DNA of 64,000 nt from Rhodococcus qingshengii JCM 15477 (GTDB lineage Bacteria > Actinomycetota > Actinomycetes > Mycobacteriales > Mycobacteriaceae), in the NCBI RefSeq assembly GCF_023221595.1, contig NZ_CP096567.1:372001-436000 (forward strand). Direction: 5' to 3'. How positions within the stretch are numbered: position 1 is the stretch's first letter; the number at the start of each line of letters is the position of its first letter. The notes under the pieces were generated by a model that made no database searches, was not told where the DNA came from, and saw only the letters and a list, made by a program, of their open reading frames with translations. A program made the position numbers and the translations under genes. Of the stretch, positions 4,845 to 62,330 are shown piece after piece.

Positions 4845-6404
4845 CTAGGCTTTTGCGGGAAGTGTAAATTCTTTTGTTTCTTTGTTGAATGGGTTCTCCT
4901 GCAACCTGAACTTCTCGACCTTTCCGGTTGGAGTCTTCGGCAAATCGGTAACGAACTCGATATAGCGAGGAACCTGAAACCTAGCCATCGTGGCATAGCA
5001 GAATTCCCAGACTTCTTTCTCTGTCAAAGCCGCCTCAGATTTTACGACGACAGATACCTTGACTTCTTCTTCGGTGAGGTCTGACTTTACTCCAAATGCG
5101 GCACAGTCCAGAACAGAAGGATGTTCTCGAATTCCTTCTTCCACCTCAAATGAAGAGATGTTTTCGCCTCGACGTCGAATACTTTCCTTCTTGCGGCCAA
5201 TAAAGAACACATTTCCGTCGACATCCATGCGCACCAAATCTCCACTGTGGAACCACATGTTCCGGAGGGCCGAGGTGCTTGCATCAGGATTTTCATAATA
5301 TCCGGAGAAGGTAGTCCACGGCACTTTGGGACGAATTAGCAGTTCCCCAGGCTCACCCGGTGCAACTTCTTGATCAAATTCATCCGCGACGATAATTTCG
5401 AATTCCTCTACGGCGCGTCCGCATGAACCTGGAATGCGGGGTTGCGAAAAATGCTGAGTTATCGGAATATTCGCCTCGACGGATCCATAGAGTTCGACAA
5501 CTGTCAACCCGAATCGTTTTTCGAACATATCGACAGATTCCGGAACCGGTACACCCCACGCCAGTCGCACCGGATTGTCTGCGTCGTTTGGCTTCGGTTC
5601 GGCCTTCGCCAAGATAGATAACGTCGCTCCCATGAAGTCGAAAACAGTGGCGCCTGCTTCGCGGATTTCGTCCCAGAATCGCGAAGCGCTAAATCGTTTA
5701 CTAATCGCAGCAGTCCCACCCACAAGGAGAGCGGGAACAGTTGTCAAAGCTGTGGCATCGGCGTGAAACAGTGGGAAAGGACAGTACAGGACGTCCGCTT
5801 CCGTTAAGCCGAAGTCTCGAATCGCGATCCGCGCCTGAGAGGTGAAGTAGCGATGCGAGAGCATACATGCCTTCGACCGCCCGGTCGTTCCCGAGGTATA
5901 GAGAAGGGCCGAGATGTCTGAGAACTTGACATCGACAGTGGGGGCTTTTCGATCAAGATAGAGATCGGAGAGCCAAAGGCCATTACCTTTCGCATCCTCG
6001 TTGCTGGCCACAACAACGGTGGCGTCGATACCTGCTTTGAACAATGCAGTAGTCAGGATTTCATAGAGATCCTCGTCAACCACGTAGACTTGTGCGTCAG
6101 CTAGGTTCACTGCGTGCTCGAGACTCAATCCCCTGAACTCGGTGTTGATGGGCACCCAGATTGCTCCGAGCCTGTTGGCAGAAAACCATGTGTGCTCGCA
6201 TGCCAATGAATTCCGCATGAACACGCTCACGCGATCGCCAGCGTTGATCCCGCAGATATCACTCAAACCTGCGGCCAGCCTGCCGACCTGGTCCTCAAAC
6301 TGCGAGAATGTGATGTCCTGTCCATCAATTTTGAGGAATACTCTGTTGGGCCAATGTTCGATTGCGTCGTTCAGTGCCGAATTCAAGGTCGTTTCGTCAT
6401 GCAT
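4845..6404 (-). CDS. AMP-forming acyl-CoA synthetase
   Basis: A 519-aa member of the ANL superfamily, which adenylates a carboxylic acid and transfers it to CoA. Visible motifs are the P-loop-like LLYTSGTTGRSKACMLSH, the A5-type region ELYGSVEANIP, the A7 motif SGDLVRMDVDGNVFFIGRKK, the hinge region RRRGENISSFEVEE and the C-terminal lysine motif PKTPTGKVEKF. Length is normal for the family. A ribosome site AGGTGA precedes the ATG. The set is closest in feel to crotonobetaine/carnitine- or aryl-CoA ligase-like enzymes, but the substrate cannot be read. It is the first of two related genes here: a decayed paralog of its C-terminus lies at 9.4-9.8 kb. Confidence 0.9.
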   Translation of the reverse strand: MHDETTLNSALNDAIEHWPNRVFLKIDGQDITFSQFEDQVGRLAAGLSDICGINAGDRVSVFMRNSLACEHTWFSANRLGAIWVPINTEFRGLSLEHAVNLADAQVYVVDEDLYEILTTALFKAGIDATVVVASNEDAKGNGLWLSDLYLDRKAPTVDVKFSDISALLYTSGTTGRSKACMLSHRYFTSQARIAIRDFGLTEADVLYCPFPLFHADATALTTVPALLVGGTAAISKRFSASRFWDEIREAGATVFDFMGATLSILAKAEPKPNDADNPVRLAWGVPVPESVDMFEKRFGLTVVELYGSVEANIPITQHFSQPRIPGSCGRAVEEFEIIVADEFDQEVAPGEPGELLIRPKVPWTTFSGYYENPDASTSALRNMWFHSGDLVRMDVDGNVFFIGRKKESIRRRGENISSFEVEEGIREHPSVLDCAAFGVKSDLTEEEVKVSVVVKSEAALTEKEVWEFCYATMARFQVPRYIEFVTDLPKTPTGKVEKFRLQENPFNKETKEFTLPAKA

Positions 6405-21716: not shown

Positions 21717-22313
21717 CTGAGTTCCTCTGTCCGAGTGCATGATTGTGCCGACCACATCACCGCCGCGAGCAGCTACAGTCATGTCCAAGGCTTCGATGAC
21801 CAGTTCGGTACGCATGTGATCCGCAATCGACCATCCCAGAACCCTTTTCGAGTGCTCGTCCTTGATCGCACACAGGTACATGTCATTTGCGCCGCAGGTC
21901 AGATAGGTGATGTCGGAGGTCCATACCGCATCGAGTCGTCCCTGATCGAACTTGCGCCGCACTAAGTCCTCCGGAAAGGAAGCAAACGGGTCGACTACGG
22001 TGGTGCGGACCTTGAACGTCCGGGGGCTGATCCCGACTATGCCAAGCGATCGCATGATCTTCGCGACCGTCTTCTCGGTGATCACCTCGGCGCGATCGTT
22101 GAGCTCAGCGGTGATTCTCGGTGCCCCGTAGACGCCTTTCGACTCCTGGTGGATCGTGAGGATCTTTCGTTCCAGATCAGCTCTTCGCTTCTGTCGTTCT
22201 TCCAATCGGGTTGTCACACTGCGACCTTGATGTTTGTAGAAACCGGAGGTCGATACTTCGAGCAGGCGTGCCATCCGATGAATTGCGGAGTTCGCGCACT
22301 CCGTGGCCATCAA
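21717..22313 (-). pseudogene. IS3 orfB, N-terminal part
   Basis: Encodes ANSAIHRMARLLEVSTSGFY, then GVYGAPRITAELNDRAEVIT, the first catalytic Asp in VWTSDITYLTCGANDMYLCA and the second in GTIMHSDRGTQ. The frame is cut at that glutamine by IS30 element A. The start is ATG 22310 (or TTG 22313); in intact IS3 elements this frame is reached from orfA by ribosomal frameshifting. Confidence 0.85.
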
Positions 22314-23839: not shown

Positions 23840-24083
23840 GTACAGATCCTCTCTCATCCCGAGATTCACTGTCCAAGATCATTGGTACACCCCGCCTCCC
23901 GAAAACAGCCGCGAAGCAGGACAAACCCGCGCACAGTGGAGAGATGAGTCCCGCCGCGGGAAAGCCGGTGCCGCCGATGCTCGCCACGCTCGGCAATCCA
24001 CCCACGGGGGAGCGCTGGCGTATTAACTGAACTAACGAATCGCATTATTGCAGGTCAGGGTGTGTGCTGATACTTTCCTCAGT

Positions 24084-25367
24084 ATGTGCAGCGAGATGCG
24101 CCGGGCTGATCTTGCAGGGCTGGTCGTTCCCGACGTGGGGCGGCTGATTTCGACAGGTTCCGAAGCAGAGCCCTACCGGTTACTCGATGCGTCGGGTGAG
24201 GTAATCGGCGCTGCGACACTATTTTTCGAGGAACTTCACGCGTGTGACCGATCGTCGGCGACGATCCGATCGTACGGGCATGACTTGTTGCGGTGGTGGA
24301 GATTTCTCGCAGCGGTCGACGTGGGATGGGAGAGAGCCAGTCCCGCGGAGGGCCGTGATTTTGCGCGTTGGATGAAGATTGCGGATAAACCCAGGCGTGA
24401 ACATTGGCGGAGGCGGGGCGAAAAAGTCTCCGGCACAACACCTGTAGGGGGCAATGCGGCCAAGAGTGGTCATTGGGTGGTCAACGAGGTCACCGGCAAG
24501 CCGCGGCAGGGACAGAAATTCTCCCCGGCCACTCGAGCGCACGCGGAAACGGTGTTGCGGGCGTTCTACGATTTTCAGATGAGCATCGGTGCTGGGCCGG
24601 TCGTCAATCCGTTCCCGGTGGATCGCTCGCCCCGCGCTTTTCGGTCGAACGCGCATCACGATCCGCAGGATCCGTTTCGTAACGAGCGGAAGGGGCGATA
24701 CAGACCCAAGGTTCCGAAACGGATACCCAAGCGCATTCCCGATGATCGTTTCAACGAACTATTCGCGGCGTTGTCGTCTAACCGAGATCGGGCAATGTTG
24801 GCCTTCTGGGTTTCGACCGGCGCCCGCGCCGACGAGCTCCTGTCGATGTCCCAGAAGAGTGCGGACCCGGGCCAGCAATTGATCACCGTAATAAGGAAGG
24901 GGACCCGGGAGGTCCAACAGTTGCCGGCGTCGCCAGATGCATTCGTGTGGTTGCGGATCTATCAAGAAGAGGCCTGGGGAAAGGATGCCCCTCACGGCTG
25001 CGATCATCCCTTGTGGATGACGTTGCGCAGGCCGTGGCGGCAGCTGTCGTATTCGGGAGCGCGCGCGATGTTCTCACGGGCGCAGTCGATGTTGGGATCC
25101 AATTGGACCATTCACGACCTGCGCCACACCGCAGCCTTTCGGATGACGAGCGATCCTGACATGCCGTTGTCCGATGTGCAATGGATCCTGGGCCACGCGC
25201 ACCTGACAACCACTCAGCTGTATCTGACCCCGAGCCGCGACGAAGTTTTCGCGCACGTACGAGCCCACCATGCTCGGTACACCGGCAACACCCAATCGCT
25301 GCACGCACCGCCAGCGCCGGGCTACAACCCGGCAGTGTTGGACGTACTTTTCGGAGGTCGACGCTGA
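24084..25367 (+). CDS. Tyrosine recombinase A (Tn554 TnpA-like)
   Basis: A site-specific recombinase of about 430 aa. The N-terminal core-binding domain (HACDRSSATIRSYGHDLLRW) is typical of phage-type integrases. The catalytic domain shows Arg in STGARADELLSM, Lys in VIRKGTREVQQLP, His-x-x-Arg in IHDLRHTAAFRM, and the second His and nucleophile Tyr in ILGHAHLTTTQLYL. The frame is open from 24048; ATG 24084 is chosen, but 24096 is also possible. Its TGA overlaps the ATG of the next recombinase (TGATG), so the two are co-translated. Such pairs move circular or transposon DNA and act together in Tn554-like elements. Confidence 0.88.
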   Translation: MCSEMRRADLAGLVVPDVGRLISTGSEAEPYRLLDASGEVIGAATLFFEELHACDRSSATIRSYGHDLLRWWRFLAAVDVGWERASPAEGRDFARWMKIADKPRREHWRRRGEKVSGTTPVGGNAAKSGHWVVNEVTGKPRQGQKFSPATRAHAETVLRAFYDFQMSIGAGPVVNPFPVDRSPRAFRSNAHHDPQDPFRNERKGRYRPKVPKRIPKRIPDDRFNELFAALSSNRDRAMLAFWVSTGARADELLSMSQKSADPGQQLITVIRKGTREVQQLPASPDAFVWLRIYQEEAWGKDAPHGCDHPLWMTLRRPWRQLSYSGARAMFSRAQSMLGSNWTIHDLRHTAAFRMTSDPDMPLSDVQWILGHAHLTTTQLYLTPSRDEVFAHVRAHHARYTGNTQSLHAPPAPGYNPAVLDVLFGGRR

Positions 25368-27844
25368 TGGTTTCTGCACGTGTCTCCAAAGCGCCTGCCA
25401 GTTGGAGCCTGAACGTCGATGCCCGCGAAGGTGCGAATCGCAGTGTCATCGACACACTCCTCGATCGGTATCCACCGCGTGTGGTGCCATCGTCGTGGAA
25501 GACGACTGAACTCGGCCGAGCGGCCGCACTGAAGCGGGTGGAAGCACTCATGATCCGGGCTCCGGGTAGCGAGAACTTTCAGCGCGATGCTGTCCGAGGT
25601 GCGGGGATGCTTCTGCGGTGGCTGAATTCGTTTCCAGGAAAGAGCTGGCAAGGCCGCTGGAACGGCAGTTGCGTCGCCGAACACGGTCTCGGATGGGTTT
25701 CGATACCGGAAACGTGGATGGACGAACAGGGAGTGCAATCGGTTCGGCCCACAGTCCTGACGCATGCCCTGATCGGATTGTTCGTCGCGGATCTGATTCG
25801 CCCCGATTTACGTTTCGTGGTCCAACTGCACCGGTCGCACTACTGGCGCGACTGGGCGGCAATCAGCCGAGATCCGAGAGGATTCGAACGACTGGAGGCC
25901 GCGGCCGGTGCAGAGACTGCCCAAGCAATGCAAGGTCGAACTGCACGATGGCAGATCTCCATGTTGATCCTGTCCAAAGGCGGCGGCCTATCCGACATCA
26001 CCGTCGGCGACTGCGTCGAACTTCGCCAGGCGGAGCTCGCCGTATGTTCGAGAGGTAAAACGCGCTACCTCTTCTACAAACTTCTCCACGACATCGGGAT
26101 CTTCCCACCAGACGCGCCACCGACTTTACGATTCGTCACGGTGTACCGAGGACAGAGCACCGTCGCAGAACTCGTCGATCGCTTCGACATCGCAAACGCC
26201 GACGTCCGGAATCTCCTCGTGGACTATCTGTCCGAACGTCACCCTTCGCTGGATTACACGACGCTCGACAATCTCTCACGACATTTGGCGCTGCATTTCT
26301 GGAAAAACCTGGAGACCACCCATCCCGGAATCAACTCGCTGCAACTCGACCGCGGCGTAGCCCAGGCATGGAAAGAACGCATGCATTGGAAGGTCAGCCG
26401 CCGCCGACTCCCCGACGGAACGTACGCCGAGACCCGTAGTCCACGAATGAACTACACCGACATGCTGACAGCTGTGCGCGCGTTCTATCTCGACCTGGCG
26501 GCGTGGGCAGCACTCGACCCCGCACGGTGGGCGAGGTGGGTAGTGCCGTGCCCGATCGGCCCAGGAGAGACGAGCGCGAAGAAAATCGGACGCCGACGCA
26601 AAGCACGCATGGATCAGCGCACACGAGAGCGACTACCTCGACTGCCAGAACTGGTGCGTATCGCAGAACAACGAGCCCATGACGCCAGGATGCTCCTCGA
26701 GGCCGCTGTTGCAGCATCGCCGGGCTCCAAATTCACCGTCCTCGGCAAGACCTACACCAAGTCGGACCCATGGTTGAAAGCAAGCGCTGACGGCATTCCG
26801 GTCATCTACGACTCCGAGGGACGAACCATCCGGCTCCGAGAAGCCGAGAACCGAGCATTCTGGGCTCTGGCAACTGTGGAAGTCCTGCGACACACAGGCG
26901 TTCGAATCGAAGAGATGCTCGAAATCAGCCATCACAGCATCACCCAATATCGATTACCCGCCACCGGAGAGCTCATCCCGCTACTGCAGATAGCACCCTC
27001 GAAGACAGACGAGGAACGCCTACTTGTGGTCAGCCCGGACCTCGCCGACATGCTGTCGACAATCGTGTCCCGAATACGCGGCGCGGACGGAGGAGTACCG
27101 CTTGTGCCTCTTTACGACCGGAACGAACGTATCTGGGTGGCCCCGGCCCCACTCTTGTTCCAATGGAAATGCGGTGGTCACCACCGCGCGGTATCTGCAG
27201 GTTTGATCCGCAATGCACTGACCGAACTCATCGATGCGGCAGGAGTGAAGGACGCAGCAGGCGAACCGCTGTACTTCCAGCCCCATGATCTGCGCCGAAT
27301 CTTCGCTACCGACGCCATCATGAACGGCATGCCTCCGCATATCGCTCAAGTTCTGTTGGGGCACAAGGACATCAACACAACCATGGGATACAAAGCCATC
27401 TACCCGGAGGAAGCGATCAACGGTCACCGCGCCTTCATCTCGCGCCGACGTGCCCTCCGCCCGAGCGAGGAGTACCGCACCCCGACAGATACCGAATGGG
27501 ATGAGTTTCTCGGACACTTCGAGCGCCGCAAACTCGCCCTCGGCGAATGCGGCCGCGCCTACGGCACCAGCTGCCAGCATGAACACAGTTGCATCCGGTG
27601 CCCTGTATTGCGTGTTGATCCCGCACAACGTTTCCGGCTCGTCGAGATACGCGACAACCTTGCTGCCCGAATTGCCGAGGCGGACAGCGAAGGCTGGATC
27701 GGTGAAGCAGAAGGTCTCCGCGTGAGCCTCGTGGCTACCGAGGAAAAGCTCGATCAGATCGATCGACGGGCCCGTCGTGCCGTTCAACTCAACATGCCCA
27801 GCTTCCCGGACATCGTCGCGCACATCGTCCAACCTCCTGCATGA
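25367..27844 (+). CDS. Tyrosine recombinase B, large (Tn554 TnpB-like)
   Basis: An 825-aa recombinase. The catalytic residues are in the C-terminal third: Arg in RHTGVRIEEMLEIS, His-x-x-Arg in PHDLRRIFATDAI, and His with Tyr in LLGHKDINTTMGYKAIYPEE. The last 100 residues contain a Cys/His cluster (CGRAYGTSCQHEHSCIRCPV then LRVDP), a feature I associate with the TnpB-type partner of Tn554-like systems. The long N-terminal half (FQRDAVRGAGMLLRWLNSFP and onward) is an extended arm/core-binding region. The chosen start overlaps the stop of recombinase A; a longer frame from 25181 would run inside the first gene. No third small TnpC-like gene follows. Confidence 0.85.
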   Translation: MVSARVSKAPASWSLNVDAREGANRSVIDTLLDRYPPRVVPSSWKTTELGRAAALKRVEALMIRAPGSENFQRDAVRGAGMLLRWLNSFPGKSWQGRWNGSCVAEHGLGWVSIPETWMDEQGVQSVRPTVLTHALIGLFVADLIRPDLRFVVQLHRSHYWRDWAAISRDPRGFERLEAAAGAETAQAMQGRTARWQISMLILSKGGGLSDITVGDCVELRQAELAVCSRGKTRYLFYKLLHDIGIFPPDAPPTLRFVTVYRGQSTVAELVDRFDIANADVRNLLVDYLSERHPSLDYTTLDNLSRHLALHFWKNLETTHPGINSLQLDRGVAQAWKERMHWKVSRRRLPDGTYAETRSPRMNYTDMLTAVRAFYLDLAAWAALDPARWARWVVPCPIGPGETSAKKIGRRRKARMDQRTRERLPRLPELVRIAEQRAHDARMLLEAAVAASPGSKFTVLGKTYTKSDPWLKASADGIPVIYDSEGRTIRLREAENRAFWALATVEVLRHTGVRIEEMLEISHHSITQYRLPATGELIPLLQIAPSKTDEERLLVVSPDLADMLSTIVSRIRGADGGVPLVPLYDRNERIWVAPAPLLFQWKCGGHHRAVSAGLIRNALTELIDAAGVKDAAGEPLYFQPHDLRRIFATDAIMNGMPPHIAQVLLGHKDINTTMGYKAIYPEEAINGHRAFISRRRALRPSEEYRTPTDTEWDEFLGHFERRKLALGECGRAYGTSCQHEHSCIRCPVLRVDPAQRFRLVEIRDNLAARIAEADSEGWIGEAEGLRVSLVATEEKLDQIDRRARRAVQLNMPSFPDIVAHIVQPPA

Positions 27845-27951: not shown

Positions 27952-27983
27952 GGCACTCTACTCTCTTGTGAGGGTAGAGTGCC
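27952..27983. promoter_or_regulatory. MerR-type operator A, before SulP gene 1
   Basis: CTCTAC-N12-GTAGAG with the arms extended to GGCACTCTAC/GTAGAGTGCC. The whole 32 bp can pair as a 14-bp stem with loop TTGT, so it also looks like a terminator for the recombinase genes. The same spacing and arms recur at 30969, 32255 and 34138, which favours an operator. It lies about 130 bp before the SulP start. Confidence 0.6.
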
Positions 27984-28110
27984 TCTGTGTTTGTGCGCTG
28001 CCGAGCGCGGTGGTGTGCACAGGTAAATCCGATTCGTAGGCGCTTGCAGCCTCGAAAATTACGTATTGATTCCGCGCTCGAACGTGGGCGGAGTCGGATG
28101 GAGCAATGTG

Positions 28111-29652
28111 ATGGCCCAGAACACGGGCGGTACGGCCCCGCAGGTGCGAGAGGCGGGGGAGGCGGGTACGTCTGTGCGTGCGGCGTTGCGTTCACCTCGC
28201 CGGCTCAAGATCGAGGTCCTTGCCGGACTGGTCGTCGCGCTCGCGTTGATCCCCGAGGCAATTTCTTTTTCCATCATCGCCGGGGTCGATCCGCGGATCG
28301 GGCTGTTCGCCTCGTTCACGATGGCGGTCACCATCTCGATCGTCGGGGGCCGCCCGGCGATGATTTCCGCTGCTACCGGTGCGATAGCGCTTGTCATTGC
28401 GCCGGTTGCGCGTGAGTACGGGATGGATTACTTCATCGCCACTGTCATCCTGGCCGGCATTTTCCAAGTGGTGCTCAGTGTTCTCGGTGTCGCCAAGTTG
28501 ATGCGTTTCATCCCGCGCAGCGTGATGGTCGGGTTCGTCAACGCGTTGGCGATCTTGATCTTCACTTCGCAGCTGCCGCATCTGATCGGTGTGCCGGCTT
28601 TGGTGTATCCGATGGTCGGAGTCGGTTTGTTGGTGATGATTTTCCTGCCGCGGTTGACCTCGGTGGTGCCGGCGCCGCTGGTGGCGATCGTGCTGTTGAC
28701 TGCGGCGACGGTGGTGTTTGCGTTGAACGTTCCCGATGTCGGGGACGAGGGCGAATTGCCGTCGAGCTTGCCGTCGTTGTTCTTTCCTGATGTGCCTTGG
28801 AATATGGAGACGCTGACGATCATTGCGCCGTATGCGCTGGCGATGGCGCTGGTCGGCCTCCTCGAATCGTTGATGACGGCGAAGTTGGTCGACGACATCA
28901 CCGACACTCACTCGAACAAGACTCGCGAAGGGTGGGGGCAGGGTGTGGCGAACCTGGTCACCGGGTTCTTCGGTGGCATGGGCGGTTGCGCGATGATCGG
29001 GCAGACGATGATCAACGTGAAGGTCTCCGGTGCCCGCACGCGCATCTCGACGTTCCTGGCCGGTGTGTTCTTGTTGATTCTCGTCGTCGGGCTCGGTGAC
29101 GTCGTCGCGTTGATCCCGATGGGCGCTCTGGTTGCGGTGATGATCATGGTGTCCGTCGGAACCATGGATTGGCACAGTATCGATCCGCGCACTCTGAAGC
29201 TGATGCCCAAGAGTGAGACGTTGGTGATGGTGGTGACGGTCGCTGCGACTGTGGGTACTCACAATTTGGCGATCGGCGTGATCTTGGGTGTGTTGACGGC
29301 GATGGTGATGTTCGCCCGCCGCGTCGCGCATCTGACGAATGTGGAGAAGGTGTCCGAAGCGGACACCAACGAGGACGGCCTGGTCGATACCCGCGTCTAT
29401 CGGGTGACCGGGGAGCTGTTCTTCGCTTCGAGCAACGATCTGGTCTATCAGTTCGACTACGTCGACGATCCGGCGAACGTGATCATCGACCTCACCGGTG
29501 CCGACATCTGGGATGCCTCGACGGTCGCCACTCTCGATGCCATTCAGCACAAGTACGAAGCGAAGGGAAAGCACGTCGAGATCATCGGTCTCGACGGCGC
29601 CAGCCTCGAGCGGTTGGATCGGCTCTCCGGCAAGCTCGGCGGCGGTCACTGA
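28111..29652 (+). CDS. SulP-family anion transporter 1 with STAS domain
   Basis: A membrane permease of about 513 aa. It opens with [20 protein letters not shown], then [20 protein letters not shown] and [20 protein letters not shown], all SulP signatures. Around ten to twelve hydrophobic segments follow, then a short cytoplasmic STAS domain ([35 protein letters not shown]). SulP proteins carry sulfate, bicarbonate or other anions. A GGAG sequence precedes the ATG at 28111; the frame is open to a TTG at 28066. Its 3' segment is nearly identical in DNA to that of the second SulP gene. MerR-type operator A is upstream. Confidence 0.9.
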
Positions 29653-29683
29653 CGTCAGCTCATCCTCACCGAAGGGGCCGTTT

Positions 29684-29707
29684 CTTCACCTGCTCACACG
29701 GGTGAAG
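29684..29707. terminator. Possible bidirectional hairpin between convergent genes
   Basis: CTTCACC-N10-GGTGAAG, a 7-bp stem that spans the end of the GT87 gene and follows the SulP stop by 32 bp. It could end transcription from either side. Weak without a T-run. Confidence 0.3.
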
Positions 29708-30926
29708 GAACGGCTTCTTCCACATCCTGACGGGATGCGGGAGCAGGGGCTGCATCGGAGCCGGTGCGGTCCCGGGTCGCAGCGACACGCACCGCGCACA
29801 CGAAGAGGACGAGCGCTGTCAGGAGTTGGGCGTTTCCGATCACCTGCTGCGCAAGTTCACCAGCCCATCCCCCCGGGAACGTCCATCTCAGGACGAAATA
29901 GGGGCCGATGGCGAAAATTGTGACGGCAACGGCGATGAGGGGCCTCCACGATCGGTACTGCGGCGCCACCCCGAGGGGGATCAGCATGATGACGTACACC
30001 CAGTGGTGAGTGACCGCGATCGGTGCCGCGAGCAGCGACGCCAGCGCGACGACCCCGAGGGCGAGGACAGGTTCCCCGCTGCGCGTGAAGCGGTGCCCTG
30101 CGTAGGCTGCGGCGGCGATGATCATGGCGACGATCAGCAGCCAGATCGCATCTTTGAGCATGCCCTGGGCGCCGAGTCGGGCCAACAGTCCGGTGACGGC
30201 TTGGTTGCGGAAGAACTCGTGCGCACCGCCGCGGTCACTGCGGAAGAATTCCGTCGCCCAGAACCACACCGAATCCTTGGGCAGAAATACGAAACCGATA
30301 CCGACGGTGACCAAGAATGCGCCGAGGGCGCGGGCGATCGAGGGTAGGTCTCGCCGCACGAGCAGGACGAGCCCGAAGGCAGCGGGAGTGATCTTGATGG
30401 CCGCGGCAATTCCGATGCCGATTCCTCTGAATCTGCGGGGCAGGGCGCCGCAGCAATCGGCGACGACCAACGCCATCAACGCGATGTTGACCTGCCCGAA
30501 CCCGAGGTTCGAGCGCACCGGCTCGAGGACCAGCGCCACACCAGTCAGCGCCGCAGCCACAAGAGATGGCCGCGGTATCGACAATTGGCGCAGGACGACT
30601 TTCAGGATCCACCACACCAGCGCGATATTGATCGATGTCCATATCACCTGCAGGACAACGGGATCACTCCACGCCATCGGCGCGAAAATTATCGCCGCGA
30701 ACGGCGAGTAGATGAACCGGAACCCGGACGAGCTCGGAAAATCTTCCGAATACAGCGGCAACCCTGATGTGAAAGCCAGTCCTGCGTCACGGAAGACGGA
30801 CAGATCCATCAAATATCCGTTGACTGCGATGATCGAGTACGCGGCGACCACCGCAATCGAGAATGCGGTACCCATGGCAATGGTGACAGGTGCCCAGCGG
30901 GGTGACGTCAGCGATGGAACAGGCAA
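29694..30926 (-). CDS. GT87-type mannosyltransferase-like membrane protein
   Basis: A 410-aa integral membrane protein of the GT-C type, family GT87 (DUF2029). Features are the N-terminal loop acidic residue in YLMDLSVFRDAGLAFTSGLP, the IYSPFAAIIFAPMAW helix start, and NLGFGQVNIALMALVVADCC, which are shared with mycobacterial polyprenol-phosphate-mannose-dependent alpha-mannosyltransferases. About ten hydrophobic segments are visible. Such enzymes extend phosphatidylinositol mannosides, lipomannan or arabinogalactan on the outer face of the membrane. A MerR-type operator lies 43 bp upstream (30969-30996), oriented so that its middle matches the site before the acyltransferase operon. Confidence 0.78.
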   Translation of the reverse strand: MPVPSLTSPRWAPVTIAMGTAFSIAVVAAYSIIAVNGYLMDLSVFRDAGLAFTSGLPLYSEDFPSSSGFRFIYSPFAAIIFAPMAWSDPVVLQVIWTSINIALVWWILKVVLRQLSIPRPSLVAAALTGVALVLEPVRSNLGFGQVNIALMALVVADCCGALPRRFRGIGIGIAAAIKITPAAFGLVLLVRRDLPSIARALGAFLVTVGIGFVFLPKDSVWFWATEFFRSDRGGAHEFFRNQAVTGLLARLGAQGMLKDAIWLLIVAMIIAAAAYAGHRFTRSGEPVLALGVVALASLLAAPIAVTHHWVYVIMLIPLGVAPQYRSWRPLIAVAVTIFAIGPYFVLRWTFPGGWAGELAQQVIGNAQLLTALVLFVCAVRVAATRDRTGSDAAPAPASRQDVEEAVPSPV

Positions 30927-30968
30927 CGAACTGTCTCCTCGGATTTTCGCCGATCAACTCAGGACGGC

Positions 30969-30996
30969 AACTCTACCCGTACGTTACAGTAGAGTT
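30969..30996. promoter_or_regulatory. MerR-type operator B, before GT87
   Basis: AACTCTAC-N12-GTAGAGTT with perfect 8-bp arms. Read on the minus strand its centre is CTGTAACGTA, identical to that of operator D before the acyltransferase gene. It is 43 bp from the GT87 start and 133 bp from the MerR start. Confidence 0.7.
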
Positions 30997-31128
30997 TGGT
31001 GGCTCGCACCTCGCGTTCGGTCCGGCAGGTCTGGTCCGATGCGGGTGCTCGCTAGAGTGGTCACCGAGCGCGGGCGCAAACATCTGCCCGTCATTCAAGG
31101 CCGGGTAGATGGATGTGGAGGTGCACCG

Positions 31129-31554
31129 ATGGGTGACGACGACGGCATGCATATGCAGATTGGGCAGGTCGCGCACCGCACCGAGTTGTCCATCCGCACC
31201 GTGCGGCATTACGACGACGTCGGATTGGTCGTTCCCTCGGAGAGAAGCGTCGGCGGTTTCCGTCTCTACACCGAAGCCGATGTCGAACGCCTACTGGTTA
31301 TTCGGCGTATGAAGCCACTCGGATTCACCCTGGCCGAAATGAAAGGCCTACTCGATGCGCTCGACGTCGTCAACGACGACTCGGCTACCGAGAAAGAGCG
31401 CTCCGAGGCGGAGGACTTCATCAACGAATGCCACGGCAAGGCTTCGGAGAGCTGCACCACGCTTCGGCGGCAATTGGCGTACGCCGAGGAACTGACCGAA
31501 CTGCTCGCAGCGCGAAGCGCGACTTCGGGTTCATCGTCGCCGGCATCTCTCTGA
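31129..31554 (+). CDS. MerR-family transcriptional regulator
   Basis: A 141-aa MerR protein. The N-terminal winged helix reads QIGQVAHRTELSIRTVRHYD, then DVGLVVPSERSVGGFRLYTE and ADVERLLVIRRMKPLGFTLA EMKGLLDAL. A dimerisation coiled coil follows (KERSEAEDFINECHGKASES then CTTLRRQLAYAEELTELLAA). The C-terminus is short, so the ligand domain is minimal; two Cys residues are present but not in a metal-binding pattern I recognise. GGAGG lies 7 nt before the ATG. MerR proteins bind dyads placed in over-long promoter spacers and switch them on. Four such dyads around this gene make it the probable regulator of the SulP, GT87 and acyltransferase genes. Confidence 0.88.
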   Translation: MGDDDGMHMQIGQVAHRTELSIRTVRHYDDVGLVVPSERSVGGFRLYTEADVERLLVIRRMKPLGFTLAEMKGLLDALDVVNDDSATEKERSEAEDFINECHGKASESCTTLRRQLAYAEELTELLAARSATSGSSSPASL

Positions 31555-31704
31555 TCCGGGAGCGCGCCGGCGGAGTAGGCCCCGTCCCAGGGCGGGTCGA
31601 GGCTCTCCGTCCAGATATTCGGATTGCCTCCGGTCTGTGAACTATTATTGCGCACTTGATATTCCGGCGATTCGACACGGCTGAATTGCGGTGACAGGCG
31701 AGCG

Positions 31705-32115
31705 CTAGGCGCCGGTAGCTCCTGTCGAACCGTGGGGAACGCTCCAGAATCTCGCCTCGTCGATGGTGACCTCGATCAGCGCCGCCCCGGTGGTTCCGCG
31801 GGGGAGCCACGGGGCAAGCATGCTGTGCCAGTGCTCGGCCACACTGTTGTAGTTGGTGGTGAAATCCGCAGTACCAGTGAGGGATACGGAACTGTTCGCC
31901 GATGTGAACGATATGTTGACCGCCGATCTCGCGGCGATGTGGGAGATGATGCGCGAGTTCGTCGGAGCAAGGAAGAACAAAGTTCCGCCGAAATCGCCCA
32001 CGCGCAAGGCCATCGGCCTGCTGATCAACCGGTTCTGATCGTCGACGGTCGTGACCATCACCGTGTCCAGTGTGCGCAACAGTGCGTGAAGTTTCTCCAC
32101 ATTCTCCGCCGCCAT
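31705..32115 (-). CDS. Pyridoxamine 5'-phosphate oxidase-like flavin-binding protein
   Basis: A 136-aa split-barrel protein of the general-stress-protein-26 type. It reads KLHALLRTLDTVMVTTVDDQ, then LISRPMALRVGDFGGTLFFL, HIAARSAVNISFTSAN and SVSLTGTADFTTN, and ends with RFWSVP. Relatives bind FMN or F420 and reduce or protect small molecules, with many uncharacterised. It is convergent with the MerR gene and divergent from the second SulP gene; operator C lies about 140 bp upstream and could act on both. No substrate can be proposed. Confidence 0.78.
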   Translation of the reverse strand: MAAENVEKLHALLRTLDTVMVTTVDDQNRLISRPMALRVGDFGGTLFFLAPTNSRIISHIAARSAVNISFTSANSSVSLTGTADFTTNYNSVAEHWHSMLAPWLPRGTTGAALIEVTIDEARFWSVPHGSTGATGA

Positions 32116-32254
32116 CGTTGTCCCCTTCGGTCACGGTCATGCGCAGCAGCTGCGCCCAGTACTGCAAGAACGTGGATGCGGGTTACCCACATGCCCCGAT
32201 CTTTCTTCACGGCACGGTGGGGCGCGTCACACTATTTTGCCTATCCGGTAACCA

Positions 32255-32282
32255 AACTCTACCATTCCGTAAGAGTAGGGTT
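32255..32282. promoter_or_regulatory. MerR-type operator C, before SulP gene 2
   Basis: AACTCTAC-N12-GTAGGGTT, one mismatch between arms. It lies in the roughly 300-bp gap between the flavin-binding gene and SulP gene 2, 140 bp before the SulP start. The rest of that gap shows nothing coding. Confidence 0.6.
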
Positions 32283-32421
32283 CGCCGTTCTCGGTCAACC
32301 CCGTCGCCTGTCCAGGCGGCCGCGGCCAGGAGATTCCCAGGTTTGCCGCACGCATCCCCGGCGCACGACGCGCCACCCCAGCCGAGTAGGAACTCTCCTG
32401 CTCACACGTGAACGGAGCATC

Positions 32422-33960
32422 GTGGCAGCACATGCCTCACCACCCTCGACCATTCGGGACGCACAGATGACCGCACCGACGGTCATGAGCGCCTTGCGAT
32501 CACCGCGACTACTCAAAACCGAGGTCCTCGCCGGATTGGTCGTTGCCCTCGCCTTGATTCCCGAGGCGATCGCGTTCTCCATCATCGCCGGCGTAGACCC
32601 CCGTGTGGGGCTGTTCGCATCCTTCGTCATGGCCGTCTCCATCGCATTCCTCGGAGGCCGCCCGGCAATGATCTCCGCCGCTACCGGTGCGATAGCCCTG
32701 GTCATTGCGCCGGTTGCACGTGAATACGGACTGGATTACTTCATCGCCACCGTCATCCTGGCCGGCATCTTTCAGATCGCCTTCGGTGTCCTCGGTGTTG
32801 CCAAGTTGATGCGTTTCATCCCGCGCAGCGTGATGATCGGTTTCGTCAACGCACTGGCGATCTTGATCTTCACCTCCCAATTCCCACACCTGATCGGTGT
32901 CCCCGCCATGGTGTATCCGATGGTCGGAGTCGGATTGCTGGTGATGATCCTGCTCCCCAAACTCACCACCGCAGTACCGGCACCACTGGTGGCGATCGTG
33001 CTGCTGACCGCGGCGACGGTGGTCTTCGCGTTGAACGTCCCCGACGTCGGGGACGAGGGCGAATTGCCGTCGAGCCTGCCGTCGCTGTTCTTTCCTGATG
33101 TGCCGCTCACCGTCGACACCTTCACCATCATCGCTCCCTACGCGCTGGCGATGGCGCTGGTCGGCCTCCTCGAATCGCTGATGACGGCGAAGTTGGTCGA
33201 CGACATCACCGACACGCACTCGAACAAGACCCGCGAAGGGTGGGCGCAGGGAGTATCGAACGTCCTGACCGGATTCTTCGGTGGCATGGGTGGTTGCGCG
33301 ATGGTCGGCCAGACCATGATCAACGTCAAAGCATCCGGCGCCCGCACCCGCATCTCGACGTTCCTGGCCGGAGTGTTCTTGCTGATCCTCGTCGTCGGAC
33401 TCGGTGACGTCGTCGCCTTGATCCCGATGGCCGCGCTCGCAGCGGTGATGATCATGGTCTCCGTCGGAACCATGGACTGGCACAGTGTGCACCCGAAGAC
33501 CCTGCGCCGCATGCCGCGTAGCGAAACCCTCGTCATGGCCGCCACCGTGATCGTCACCGTCACCACACACAACCTCGCCTACGGCGTGATCGTCGGTGTG
33601 CTGACGGCGATGGTGATGTTCGCCCGCCGCGTCGCGCATCTGACGAATGTGGAGAAGGTGTCCGAAGCGGACACCAACGAGGACGGACTCGTCGATACCC
33701 GCGTCTATCGGGTGACCGGGGAGCTGTTCTTCGCTTCGAGCAACGATCTGGTCTATCAGTTCGACTACGTCGACGATCCGGCGAACGTGATCATCGACCT
33801 CACCGGTGCCGACATCTGGGATGCCTCGACGGTCGCCACTCTCGATGCCATTCAGCACAAGTACGAAGCGAAGGGAAAGCACGTCGAGATCATCGGTCTC
33901 GACGGCGCCAGCCTCGAGCGTCACCGAGGGCTCAGCGGCACCCTCACTTCATCGCATTGA
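32422..33960 (+). CDS. SulP-family anion transporter 2 with STAS domain
   Basis: A close paralog of SulP gene 1. It shows the same motifs ([80 protein letters not shown]) and the same STAS domain. GTG 32422 is chosen because GGAG lies 5 nt upstream; ATG 32467 is an alternative. The N-terminal two thirds differ from gene 1 at many synonymous sites, but about 310 nt near the 3' end are almost unchanged, which suggests gene conversion. The final residues differ ([13 protein letters not shown]). Operator C is upstream. Confidence 0.9.
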
Positions 33961-34137
33961 GATGGGTGGACGCCGTCTGCGCTCGGTTATCACCTAATTG
34001 TGCTGTAGCGCAACGAATTATGGTGGTACTTCACGTCTGGTTCTCGCCGTGTTGTCGAGAAACCGGAACTCGCCACCCGGCGGGCCCCCGTTCGCGGCGG
34101 TCGGTGAAATGGCACCAGGACGCTCCGGACCCTCGAT

Positions 34138-34165
34138 AAACCTACTGTAACGTAAGAGTAAAGTT
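34138..34165. promoter_or_regulatory. MerR-type operator D, before the acyltransferase operon
   Basis: AAACCTAC-N12-GTAAAGTT, the least symmetrical of the four sites but with the same 12-bp spacing and the CTGTAACGTAAGA centre related to sites B and C. It is 73 bp before the GTG of the acyltransferase gene. The 277-bp gap 33961-34237 holds no gene. Confidence 0.55.
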
Positions 34166-34237
34166 GTGGCGGGTGTTCGACCGCCGCCAAGTCCATGAGA
34201 GTCACGTCCGCCCAACACCATCGAGGAGAAAGATCCG

Positions 34238-35287
34238 GTGCACCGAATCAACGACGGAACCATCGAACCGAAATCGGGCGATACGGCAGCGCACACAGGG
34301 CGGGTGGACTGGGTCGACCTGGCGAAAGGGATCAGCATCGCGTTGGTCGTCCTCCTGCACAGCACCAACTTTCTCGTCACCCGCGGGTTGGCCGCAGGGA
34401 TCTGGAACGACATCAACGCTGTTGCGGAACCGATTCGGATGCCCTTGTTCTTCCTCACCGCCGGCCTCTTCGCACACAAAGTGACATCACTGCCGTGGGC
34501 AACGGTGATCCGGCGGCGAGTCCTGCCTCTGGCATACCTCTACCTCATGTGGACGGTTCTGCGCTTCGTGTTCTTCAGCGCCTTTCCGGCCACCGCAGGA
34601 ACCGACGAAACCTCGAGCCCACTGAACTTGATCACTGCGCTGGTCGTACCGACCAGCGGGTTGTGGTTCCTCTACGCACTCGCGGTGTACACGGTGCTCA
34701 CGAAAGCACTCGGCGGAATCGACTATCGAGTCCAACTGCTCGGTGCGATCGCGTTGGCCTTCACCGCTCCCAGCATCGGAGGCGTCGACTGGACCTGGGG
34801 AAACATGATGGAACTCTTCCTCTTCTTCCTCGCCGGAGCGCACCTGCAACAGATGATCCGCGCCGCCGCCGCATCGACGACGATGACACGTCTCGCGCTC
34901 TCCGGCACCGCATTCGCGCTCGCGTACGCCCTGCACGTCAATGGGTACATCACCTCGGTCGGCGCCGCGACGATCACCCTGAGCGCCTTGGGTCTGTTCG
35001 TCGGCATCACTCTCACATCGCAACTGCAGGCACTGCGGATATTCGCCCCCTTCAGAAAGCTCGGAACACTCACCTTGCCGGTGTACCTCATGCACGAAGT
35101 ACTTCTCGGCATCATCGTGGTCGCCGCTGTTCACGCAGGCTTCGATTTCACCCGTAACGCGCTGTTGGTGTTCGGCCCCCTCCTGGTAGCCACCGTTGCA
35201 GTCGGTGGATCCCTGGCGATTCACGCAGCGCTGACCTCCGCCGGACAACGATGGCTCTTCGTCATGCCGCGCCGGAGCACCTCATGA
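34238..35287 (+). CDS. Membrane acyltransferase, family 3
   Basis: A 349-aa polytopic membrane protein of the acyltransferase-3 (OafA/NodX-like) family. The N-terminal VDWVDLAKGISIALVVLLHS contains the family Asp and His, followed by a PLFFLTAGLFAHK helix and a late TLPVYLMHEVLLGIIVV motif. About ten hydrophobic segments are visible. These enzymes transfer acetyl or other acyl groups to sugars or lipids at the membrane. GTG at 34238 follows a GAGGAG ribosome site. It heads an operon with a GtrA-like gene and a small membrane protein, and operator D lies in its leader. Confidence 0.85.
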   Translation: MHRINDGTIEPKSGDTAAHTGRVDWVDLAKGISIALVVLLHSTNFLVTRGLAAGIWNDINAVAEPIRMPLFFLTAGLFAHKVTSLPWATVIRRRVLPLAYLYLMWTVLRFVFFSAFPATAGTDETSSPLNLITALVVPTSGLWFLYALAVYTVLTKALGGIDYRVQLLGAIALAFTAPSIGGVDWTWGNMMELFLFFLAGAHLQQMIRAAAASTTMTRLALSGTAFALAYALHVNGYITSVGAATITLSALGLFVGITLTSQLQALRIFAPFRKLGTLTLPVYLMHEVLLGIIVVAAVHAGFDFTRNALLVFGPLLVATVAVGGSLAIHAALTSAGQRWLFVMPRRSTS

Positions 35288-35336
35288 CACCTTCGTCGTA
35301 CATGTTCCCCCAGCCCCCACGCCGGAAAGCGCAAAC

Positions 35337-35888
35337 GTGACCTCGGCACTGACCATCCTCTCCCAAGCCCTCGTGTACGCCCTGCCGCAGCGCTGGATCG
35401 CGAGGCTTCTGCGCTACCCCGAAGCCGTGAAATTCCTCCTGATCGCAACAGCGGGCACCATGGCCACGACGACACTGTTTTCGATCCTGAAATGGACGGC
35501 GCTCACAGACAATCCGGTCACAGCGCACATGCTCGCCGCACTGATCTCCGCCGTGTACGCATACATCCTGTGCCTGGCATGGTCGTTCGCCGACATCGAT
35601 CATGCAAGCGGAGGACGCTGGGCAGCAACCTTTTTCGCCCTCATGGCAGTCTCCATCACTCTCGGTGCCATTCCCCTCTGGATTGCCCGATACCACCTGG
35701 AATTGAGGGAACCCCACGTGCATGCCCTCACTGAAACCGCAAGCGATTTCGTCGCGAGCACCGTGGTCGGTGCCTTTCTCTCGACGTGGTTCCTCTGGCA
35801 CGCGTGGCAGCGAGTTCGCTCGACTTCGGCCGCGGACTTCGACGCCGCTGCCGTCCCGGCGACGGAGAGGCTCGACCCACCGGCCTGA
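35337..35888 (+). CDS. GtrA-like membrane protein
   Basis: A 183-aa protein with four hydrophobic segments. RYPEAVKFLLIATAGTMATT and ALISAVYAYILCLAWSFADI fit the GtrA-like family, thought to flip polyprenyl-phosphate-linked sugars or assist glycosyltransferases. It starts at GTG 35337, 49 bp after the acyltransferase stop and in the same direction. With GT87 and the acyltransferase it suggests envelope polysaccharide or lipoglycan modification. Similarity to GtrA is moderate, so other small four-helix families are possible. Confidence 0.65.
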   Translation: MTSALTILSQALVYALPQRWIARLLRYPEAVKFLLIATAGTMATTTLFSILKWTALTDNPVTAHMLAALISAVYAYILCLAWSFADIDHASGGRWAATFFALMAVSITLGAIPLWIARYHLELREPHVHALTETASDFVASTVVGAFLSTWFLWHAWQRVRSTSAADFDAAAVPATERLDPPA

Positions 35889-35947
35889 CCACCCATCCGC
35901 CACCTCACCGGAAACCACTCCAGGTGTGAACTCATGAAAGTGACGGC

Positions 35948-36088
35948 ATGACCATCACATCCGATGCATCGACCCGCCTCCACGCACTCAGCGAATGGAT
36001 CAACGACCATCCCACCGCCACGTTCGTGGTTTTGTTCGTCCTTGCCGTACTGCTGGTAGTCCTCGCAGTATGGGCAATCTTTCGCTGA
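35948..36088 (+). CDS. Small single-pass membrane protein (46 aa)
   Basis: The ATG at 35948 opens a 46-codon frame: MTITSDASTRLHALSEWIND, then a hydrophobic helix HPTATFVVLFVLAVLLVVLA and VWAIFR. It is the last gene of the acyltransferase/GtrA operon, 59 bp after GtrA. The clean charged head plus one membrane helix is typical of genuine small membrane proteins. No family recognised. Confidence 0.5.
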   Translation: MTITSDASTRLHALSEWINDHPTATFVVLFVLAVLLVVLAVWAIFR

Positions 36089-36801: not shown

Positions 36802-36932
36802 GTGTCGAACCGATCCTGGTACAGCCGTAGATGATACGTCTGTACCGCTTGTCTTGTGCTCGGAAACTGTGGCTCCGCGAGGGCTCCCTGTGTCGGAGGT
36901 AGAGCCGGAACTCGACATCTGCAAAAACTCAC

Positions 36933-36967
36933 CTTGGTACGTTTGTATAAGATACAGATGTACCAAG
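36933..36967. promoter_or_regulatory. TetR operator, long dyad
   Basis: CTTGGTAC at 36933 pairs with GTACCAAG ending at 36967, and inside them TGTAT-AAG-ATACA continues the symmetry (16-bp arms, two mismatches). It lies 16 bp before the MFS start, where a bound repressor would block the promoter. Confidence 0.7.
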
Positions 36968-36983
36968 TTTTGGGGAGTGGCCT

Positions 36984-62093: not shown

Positions 62094-62178
62094 GGGCGTA
62101 CCTTCCCGAACCAGCGCGCCAACGCCGGTCCTGATCAGAGCTGATGGAATTTCAGATCATTCCCGGGAAGGTGCGCCC
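62094..62178. repeat. Long dyad in the IS256 leader
   Basis: GGGCGTACCTTCCCG (62094-62108) pairs with CGGGAAGGTGCGCCC (62164-62178), 14 of 15 positions, across 55 bp. It lies directly before the transposase start and may protect against read-through transcription by hiding the start. Confidence 0.55.
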
Positions 62179-62330
62179 ACTCACGCCGCCTCGCCGAGAA
62201 CCATCCACAGGTTCTGATCATTGCTCAGTGAGAATCCATCCGACGACATAGGGGGAGCACACTTTCGGGGCCGAGTCGACAGTCGGAGGTATACCAGTGT
62301 CGACGTGGGCACCGCGTGCTCCCGTTGATG

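Follow-up and report, generated by a model that had tools for sequence, protein, structure and literature searches.

Are genes for 2 SulP-type anion transporters and for the modification of envelope glycans controlled together by a single MerR-family regulator? The question is raised by an 8-kb gene module in a 64,000-nucleotide stretch of Rhodococcus qingshengii JCM 15477 (contig NZ_CP096567.1, positions 372,001 to 436,000; hereafter the window, numbered from its first letter), where 4 dyads with the same arms stand among genes for SulP1, SulP2, a GT87 glycosyltransferase, a MerR regulator of 141 aa, a pyridoxamine 5'-phosphate oxidase-like (PNPOx-like) protein, an acyltransferase-3, a GtrA-like protein, and a small protein. 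We identified the 4 dyads as imperfect copies of a single 26-bp palindrome, ACTCTACCCTNACGTNAGGGTAGAGT, and, as far as sequence comparison can tell, the regulon that they mark is real, compact, conserved, and MerR-linked. We consider it probable that the 141-aa MerR binds this palindrome and controls the transcription units of the window in the manner of its family.

Putative operator palindrome and its rarity in the genome

The original prediction described constant arms around a 12-bp spacer. The dyads proved to be real and rare (arms ACTCTAC-N12-GTAGAGT, with 0, 0, 1, and 3 mismatches in sites 1, 2, 3, and 4, respectively), but the supposed spacer belongs to the palindrome: relatives revealed a conserved center that is part of the operator and not neutral DNA. 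Scanned with at most 3 mismatches, the arms matched the window 5 times against 1.05 expected, and the fifth match (position 22298, 3 mismatches) looks like chance. With at most 1 mismatch, they occurred at only 4 places in the whole genome, namely 3 of the window sites and C1:1228617, and the arms alone at up to 3 mismatches were uninformative genome-wide (112 matches vs 181 for the reversed control). The 26-bp pattern including the center, which was drawn up after the relatives had been inspected, gave exactly 5 sites at up to 3 mismatches in the 7.5-Mb genome and 0 in the control, so the weakest site, site 4, also holds. Besides the 4 window sites, it found 1 site that precedes a chromosomal sulP, itself followed by a MerR paralog 68-70% identical to the window MerR.

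Genome-wide frequency had been chosen beforehand as a test of the prediction, and the motif is not common. The 112 matches of the bare arms would suit a chance or repeat-derived pattern, but we give that explanation a practically negligible probability in view of the count with the full pattern, the conservation of the site across families and orders, and its tracking of MerR; chance as the source of the 4 dyads was ruled out by the 5 sites against an empty control. Recent promoter duplication was rejected as a source of the dyads: when different upstream regions were compared with one another (13 comparisons), the best alignment fell at the dyad in 10 and elsewhere, with similar scores, in 3.

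As proposed, site 1 lies before SulP1 and site 4 before the acyltransferase. Sites 2 and 3, which had been assigned to GT87 and SulP2, lie between divergent genes (GT87 and merR, and the PNPOx-like gene and SulP2, respectively), and for this reason the 4 sites could serve up to 6 transcription units.

Occurrence of the palindrome with MerR in genomes and plasmids

We searched 151 genomes, including that of the window, with a relaxed pattern (at most 3 mismatches) and found the site in 38 genomes, with reversed control matches in none. MerR orthologs were called at E <= 1e-22 (among the matches listed, E jumps from 4e-23 to 3e-17) and were identified in 51 genomes, comprising 37 of the 38 genomes with the site and 14 of the 113 without it (Fisher p=1.8e-22, uncorrected for relatedness). 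In the 38th site genome, G061, an apparently frame-shifted merR adjoins the site. The regulator gene is linked to its presumed targets, with 46 of 48 sites within 4 kb of merR and G090:C1:6650492 and G020:C5:76075 as the exceptions. The motif is conserved before orthologs in several actinobacterial orders, as the prediction had required, and it tracks merR.

A scan with the MerR alignment yielded 587 confirmed stretches, the best 80 of which were taken as named loci (1.49 Mb in total). SulP was identified in 77 of these 80 loci and the site, at a position weight matrix (PWM) score of at least 20, in 69, with 0 hits from column-permuted and reversed matrices; a PWM built from the 5 sites of this genome alone recovered 70 of the 80 loci at the same score (controls: 1 reversed, 0 permuted). 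In most Mycobacteriales sulP is followed by merR, as in the chromosomal pair of the window strain, and Streptomyces has the 2 genes divergent; in either arrangement, the promoter carries the site. Out of 22 plasmid stretches selected from listings and fetched, 20 had SulP and MerR, and 16 of these had the site. The remaining 4, all from Corynebacterium, had a related palindrome, CAACCCT-N11-AGGGTTG, at the same place, which was read by eye from L124 and L227 and afterwards found in L250 and L251; at up to 1 mismatch it gave 5 hits in the 4 Corynebacterium stretches (reversed control 0), but the named loci (1.49 Mb) gave 5 hits as well. On a Gordonia rubripertincta plasmid (L228), the sulP-merR gap (5725-5976) has 2 adjacent palindrome-like stretches ahead of merR, which may form a double site. 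Judged by these surveys, SulP-MerR is a widespread actinobacterial module, both plasmid-borne and chromosomal.

If the operator belonged to sulP and were bound by another, unlinked regulator, merR would be a mere neighbor. The gene most often found behind the site is sulP, which would fit such an arrangement, as would L216 and the Kocuria plasmid L229, where this MerR is present and both SulP and a site before its gene are missing. However, from one genome to the next the site goes with merR, and in L042, L238, L211, and L218 merR retains it although the stretch has no SulP. Conversely, 2 genomes with SulP and without a MerR ortholog at the cut-off, G007 and G048, have sites 5 and 6 mismatches off the consensus (L056 and L052), and no site was found at the SulP of L123, a stretch in which no MerR is annotated. 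We regard an unlinked regulator as very improbable and assign the site to this MerR.

Envelope genes and other cargo at the site

GT87 and acyltransferase-3 recur with SulP-MerR in other genera, GT87 in Rhodococcus, Hoyosella, and Corynebacterium. The order SulP-GT87-merR was also found in G020 (L041) and Rhodococcus sp. KRD197 (L143), and Rhodococcoides fascians NBRC 12155 (L174) has the same order minus the first SulP; in the GT87/merR gap, the palindrome is kept in L041 and L174 and degraded in L143 (PWM 12). Acyltransferase-3, GT87, SulP, and MerR stand together on 1 contig of Hoyosella (L044/L177). Among GT87 relatives at E <= 1e-40, all 4 plasmid records have GT87 beside SulP-MerR, 2 of them being C. 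glutamicum records at ~44% identity, 1 with 2 SulP-MerR pairs. A site directly upstream of acyltransferase-3 was identified in the window, on a Pseudonocardia plasmid (L121), and in Auraticoccus (L183), and in L121 an RmlC-type epimerase alongside has a site of its own.

These recurrences bear on the alternative that sulP and merR are the only true targets and that the GT87, acyltransferase, GtrA, and PNPOx genes lie near the plasmid sites without functional coupling. Most relatives do show just sulP and merR at the site, and in 7 of 30 GT87 stretches (L091, L099, and L103-L107), GT87 and acyltransferase-3 are direct neighbors with no site at PWM >= 14 in their ~4 kb. Nevertheless, site 4 faces the acyltransferase unit alone, and the 4 plasmid records and the Pseudonocardia and Auraticoccus sites likewise speak for coupling, so that we hold restriction to sulP and merR to be unlikely. 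The adjacency of the 2 envelope genes in the 7 stretches without a site suggests that GT87 and acyltransferase-3 probably work together also without MerR.

The window GT87 resembles a PimE-type mannosyltransferase, with an NCBIfam PRK13375 match below the family cut-off and a match to a mannosyltransferase in the PDB (9dm5, E=1.5e-18). The acyltransferase is weakly like OpgC/MdoC (MdoC match at E=3.8e-5, far below the family cut-off), a search of solved structures at E <= 1 gave no relative, and we presume it to be comparable to SucT-type acyltransferases.

Genes of quite other kinds also have the site before them: translation release factor 3 (RF3) in L043, L233, and L234, RNase J in L143 and NhaA in L179 and L180 (in both cases with a site common to SulP), and a UvrD/HelD-like helicase in L232, where the site is weak (PWM 21.9). 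With such cargo at the site, a general stress regulon capturing varied genes is as good a description of the system as an envelope regulon. The predicted regulon of 1 MerR joining SulP, GT87, acyltransferase-3, and GtrA was largely right; its reach is wider than proposed, and the chromosomal sulP-merR copy belongs to it too. That envelope remodeling may be coupled to anion uptake is a guess.

Promoter architecture and the mode of control

In 10 related chromosomal sulP promoters, the DNA from the dyad to the start codon is conserved, and the DNA further upstream drifts. We tested spacing on 43 distinct sulP-directed sites outside Streptomyces, whose sites lack the TTG and were excluded from this test only after that had been seen, and found that in 12 sites TTG occupies positions -4 to -2 relative to the dyad, corresponding to a 19-bp spacer; at 39 other offsets, the count averaged 0.38 and never exceeded 3. 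TAnnnT, the mycobacterial -10 form, was present in the right arm of 40 of the 43 sites, a count partly built in because the sites were picked by PWM. Taken together, the 2 motifs give a -35-like element 19 bp from a -10-like element. The palindrome overlaps promoter-like elements, and an unusually long spacing of 19-20 bp is typical of MerR promoters.

We favor activation over plain repression only tentatively, because the window sites, although they retain a -10-like part, have poor -35 hexamers and no TTG, and because of the Streptomyces sites. A MerR that binds as a simple repressor covering the -10 element, without a MerR-type spacer mechanism, would explain these same features and the -10-like hexamer in the right arm; such a repressor site would have no need of TTG enriched exactly at the 19-bp spacing, and we rate this explanation as possible but doubtful.

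Several further observations, along with the promoter limits and the 2 MerR loci without SulP and site given above, weigh against control by this MerR through the palindrome. Classic MerR dyads, at ~20-22 bp, are shorter than 26 bp. The 14 genomes with a MerR ortholog outside the site group have no site at the survey threshold, but 2 of them, taken as matching L144 and L122, do have weaker sites; 11 of the 80 named loci, 5 of them mycobacterial, fall below PWM 20. At PWM >= 16, no site lies directly before GT87 in L044/L177, L143, L250, and L251 or directly before acyltransferase-3 in L041 and L044/L177, and the GtrA and PNPOx genes had no relative at E <= 1e-12 in 133 loci (the copy on plasmid pREL1 is not among them). 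Site 2 may act on GT87 rather than mainly on merR, since 3 of the 4 rhodococci aligned conserve a second TAGAGT ~58 bp downstream.

Regulator and transporter

The MerR carries a winged helix-turn-helix at its N-terminus (PF13411 at E=1.7e-18, PF00376, and PF09278, all above cut-off), and the Pfam scan of its 141 aa found no ligand domain. Proteins of the MerR family dimerize by way of an antiparallel C-terminal helix and distort their DNA when an effector triggers them. The window MerR scores below all NCBIfam cut-offs listed (CueR, 68.3 bits vs a cut-off of 147.4). With the activators CueR, ZntR, and CadR it shares the helix-turn-helix family and a short C-terminus, and in relatives its putative operator appears to lie inside an over-long spacer; those activators act on metal pumps, whereas the presumed target here is an SLC26-type transporter and the palindrome measures 26 bp. 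Metal sensing through a CueR-like Cys pair was rejected as a family trait, since many orthologs lack these cysteines near the C-terminus.

The DNA fetched for 4 loci (L050, L119, L174, and L223) includes crcB and usp genes. In the 2 of these that were scanned, from Gordonia and Rhodococcus plasmids, fluoride riboswitches were found at L223:6623-6709 and L119:3125-3215, by the crcB-usp clusters next to SulP-MerR. The MerR site precedes crcB or usp in none of the 4 loci, which speaks against fluoride sensing by the MerR; a stress-island association may explain the neighborhood.

Both SulPs have the SLC26 membrane domain (PF00916) and a C-terminal STAS domain (PF01740), each above cut-off, and score below the NCBIfam cut-offs for TIGR00815 (sulfate permease), DauA, and BicA. 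Their closest solved relative by far is SLC26Dg (5da0; E about 1e-145 for both, 2.1e-145 for SulP1). SLC26Dg, from Deinococcus geothermalis, was assayed with fumarate (PMC6497670); the likeness to the window SulPs is one of sequence. With a fumarate transporter as nearest solved relative, the label "sulfate permease" is unsafe, and sulfate should not be assumed.

Module genes and plasmid setting

Pfam confirmed the genes named in the original prediction, apart from the 46-aa open reading frame, for which the Pfam scan gave no match; a TetR gene was confirmed in the window besides the module genes. Features are listed in Table 1.

Table 1. Operator sites and genes of the module in window coordinates.
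Feature	Position	Strand	Basis and remarks
Operator site 1, upstream of SulP1	27955..27980	+	Arm and 26-bp pattern scans; ACTCTACTCTCTTGTGAGGGTAGAGT; TAGAGT -10-like element at 27975-27980
SulP1, SulP/SLC26-type anion transporter with STAS domain	28111..29652	+	PF00916, PF01740; start 28111 by analogy with pREL1 annotation
GT87 glycosyltransferase	29694..30926	-	PF09594; start ~30875 if pREL1 annotation is followed
Operator site 2, GT87(-)/merR(+) intergenic region	30970..30995	.	Pattern scans; aligned with 3 other rhodococci; TAGAGT reads outward from both arms
MerR-family regulator, 141 aa	31129..31554	+	PF13411, PF00376, PF09278
PNPOx-like protein, divergent from SulP2 across site 3	31705..32115	-	PF16242, PF01243
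Operator site 3, PNPOx-like gene(-)/SulP2(+) gap	32256..32281	.	Pattern scans
SulP2, SulP1 paralog	32467..33960	+	PF00916, PF01740; 3' end nearly identical to SulP1
Operator site 4, weakest, upstream of acyltransferase	34139..34164	+	3 mismatches to 26-bp pattern; AACCTACTGTAACGTAAGAGTAAAGT; TAAAGT at 34159-34164
Acyltransferase-3 membrane protein	34238..35287	+	PF01757
GtrA-like membrane protein	35337..35888	+	PF04138
46-aa small protein with hydrophobic stretch, same direction as GtrA-like gene	35948..36088	+	Open reading frame; WP_003944648.1 in pREL1 annotation

Over its 8 kb, the module shares 99.4% identity with part of pREL1, a linear plasmid from R. erythropolis PR4, and with a plasmid from R. 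qingshengii. The right flank matches pREL1 too (98.4%), and the left flank matches it only from 23895, at 2 adjacent integrase genes; from these matches, the contig is most likely a plasmid of the pREL1 group. These integrase genes, of the tyrosine recombinase type (24048-27844), lie directly left of the module. They are matched at 95-96% by 3 other plasmids from Rhodococcus, in which the match ends at ~27.8 kb, before the module, which suggests a cargo boundary. The DNA of SulP1 and SulP2 is ~67-90% identical per 100 bases over most of its length and 98-100% identical over ~300 bases near the 3' end, with a longest identical run of 230, a tract that likely arose by gene conversion or recombination. 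Right of the module, the gap between divergent TetR and MFS genes (~36925-36970) has a separate inverted repeat, TTGGTAC...GTACCAA, possibly a TetR operator, and TetR and MFS genes adjoin SulP-MerR on 3 other plasmids also. At 62130-62201, the window has an Rfam match to the actinobacterial small RNA Ms_AS-8.

Relation to described systems

The original prediction knew of no described system that joins these genes. No operator or regulon for SulP-MerR was found in the literature searched, whose coverage is partial with subscription papers outside its scope, but the gene pair itself is in print: on the Arthrobacter plasmids pA8H1 and pA40H2, MerR and SulP were named the 'SLP' module and assigned to sulfate uptake (PMC6305408). 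It is the same merR-sulP pair, close together on a plasmid, as in the pREL1 copy of the window module, and pA8H1 (L226) has the full consensus palindrome between merR and sulP; in the part of that article available, the pair is named but no operator, regulon, or envelope link is given. The pair does not appear in the parts available of PMC1180825, PMC13414329, and PMC4531530.

Proposed mechanism and implications

We infer the following scheme. A dimer of the 141-aa MerR would bind the 26-bp palindrome, which would overlap the core promoter at every transcription unit, and would control each unit in the MerR manner, through an over-long -35/-10 spacer of ~19 bp. The ancestral regulon may have consisted of an autoregulated sulP and merR, which on the erythropolis-group plasmid would have grown to include SulP1, SulP2, GT87, merR, the PNPOx-like gene, and the acyltransferase/GtrA/46-aa unit. 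The signal is probably tied to the transported anion or to ion or pH stress; it would lead to more of the SLC26-type transporter, and the same signal would alter surface glycans by way of the PimE-like transferase, the GtrA-like protein, and the acyltransferase.

A bolder extension, which we put forward tentatively and think rather improbable, is that this MerR founds an anion- or pH-responsive class, in which a regulator-operator-SLC26 core on plasmids and chromosomes across Actinomycetota would repeatedly capture genes (glycan transferases, acyltransferases, NhaA, RF3, RNase J, and the UvrD/HelD-like helicase) by means of one 26-bp site before each, and that on the window plasmid it would couple dicarboxylate or bicarbonate traffic to the acylation of surface glycans. 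If the SulP substrate were fumarate- or succinate-like and the acyltransferase of the succinyl type, there would be an attractive, albeit speculative, link between them.

The system is of interest because it is broad, because its presumed target is of the SLC26 type, and because envelope genes are associated with it time and again. The palindrome offers a sequence-defined operator for a SulP and MerR pair that is widespread and, in the literature searched, uncharacterized; with it, lists of targets can be drawn up for many actinobacterial genomes and plasmids from their sequences alone. The palindrome further connects envelope-glycan genes with an SLC26-type transporter, for which sulfate permease is the usual annotation, and through this tie the substrate of the transporter and the signal of the regulator become directly testable in non-pathogenic laboratory rhodococci.

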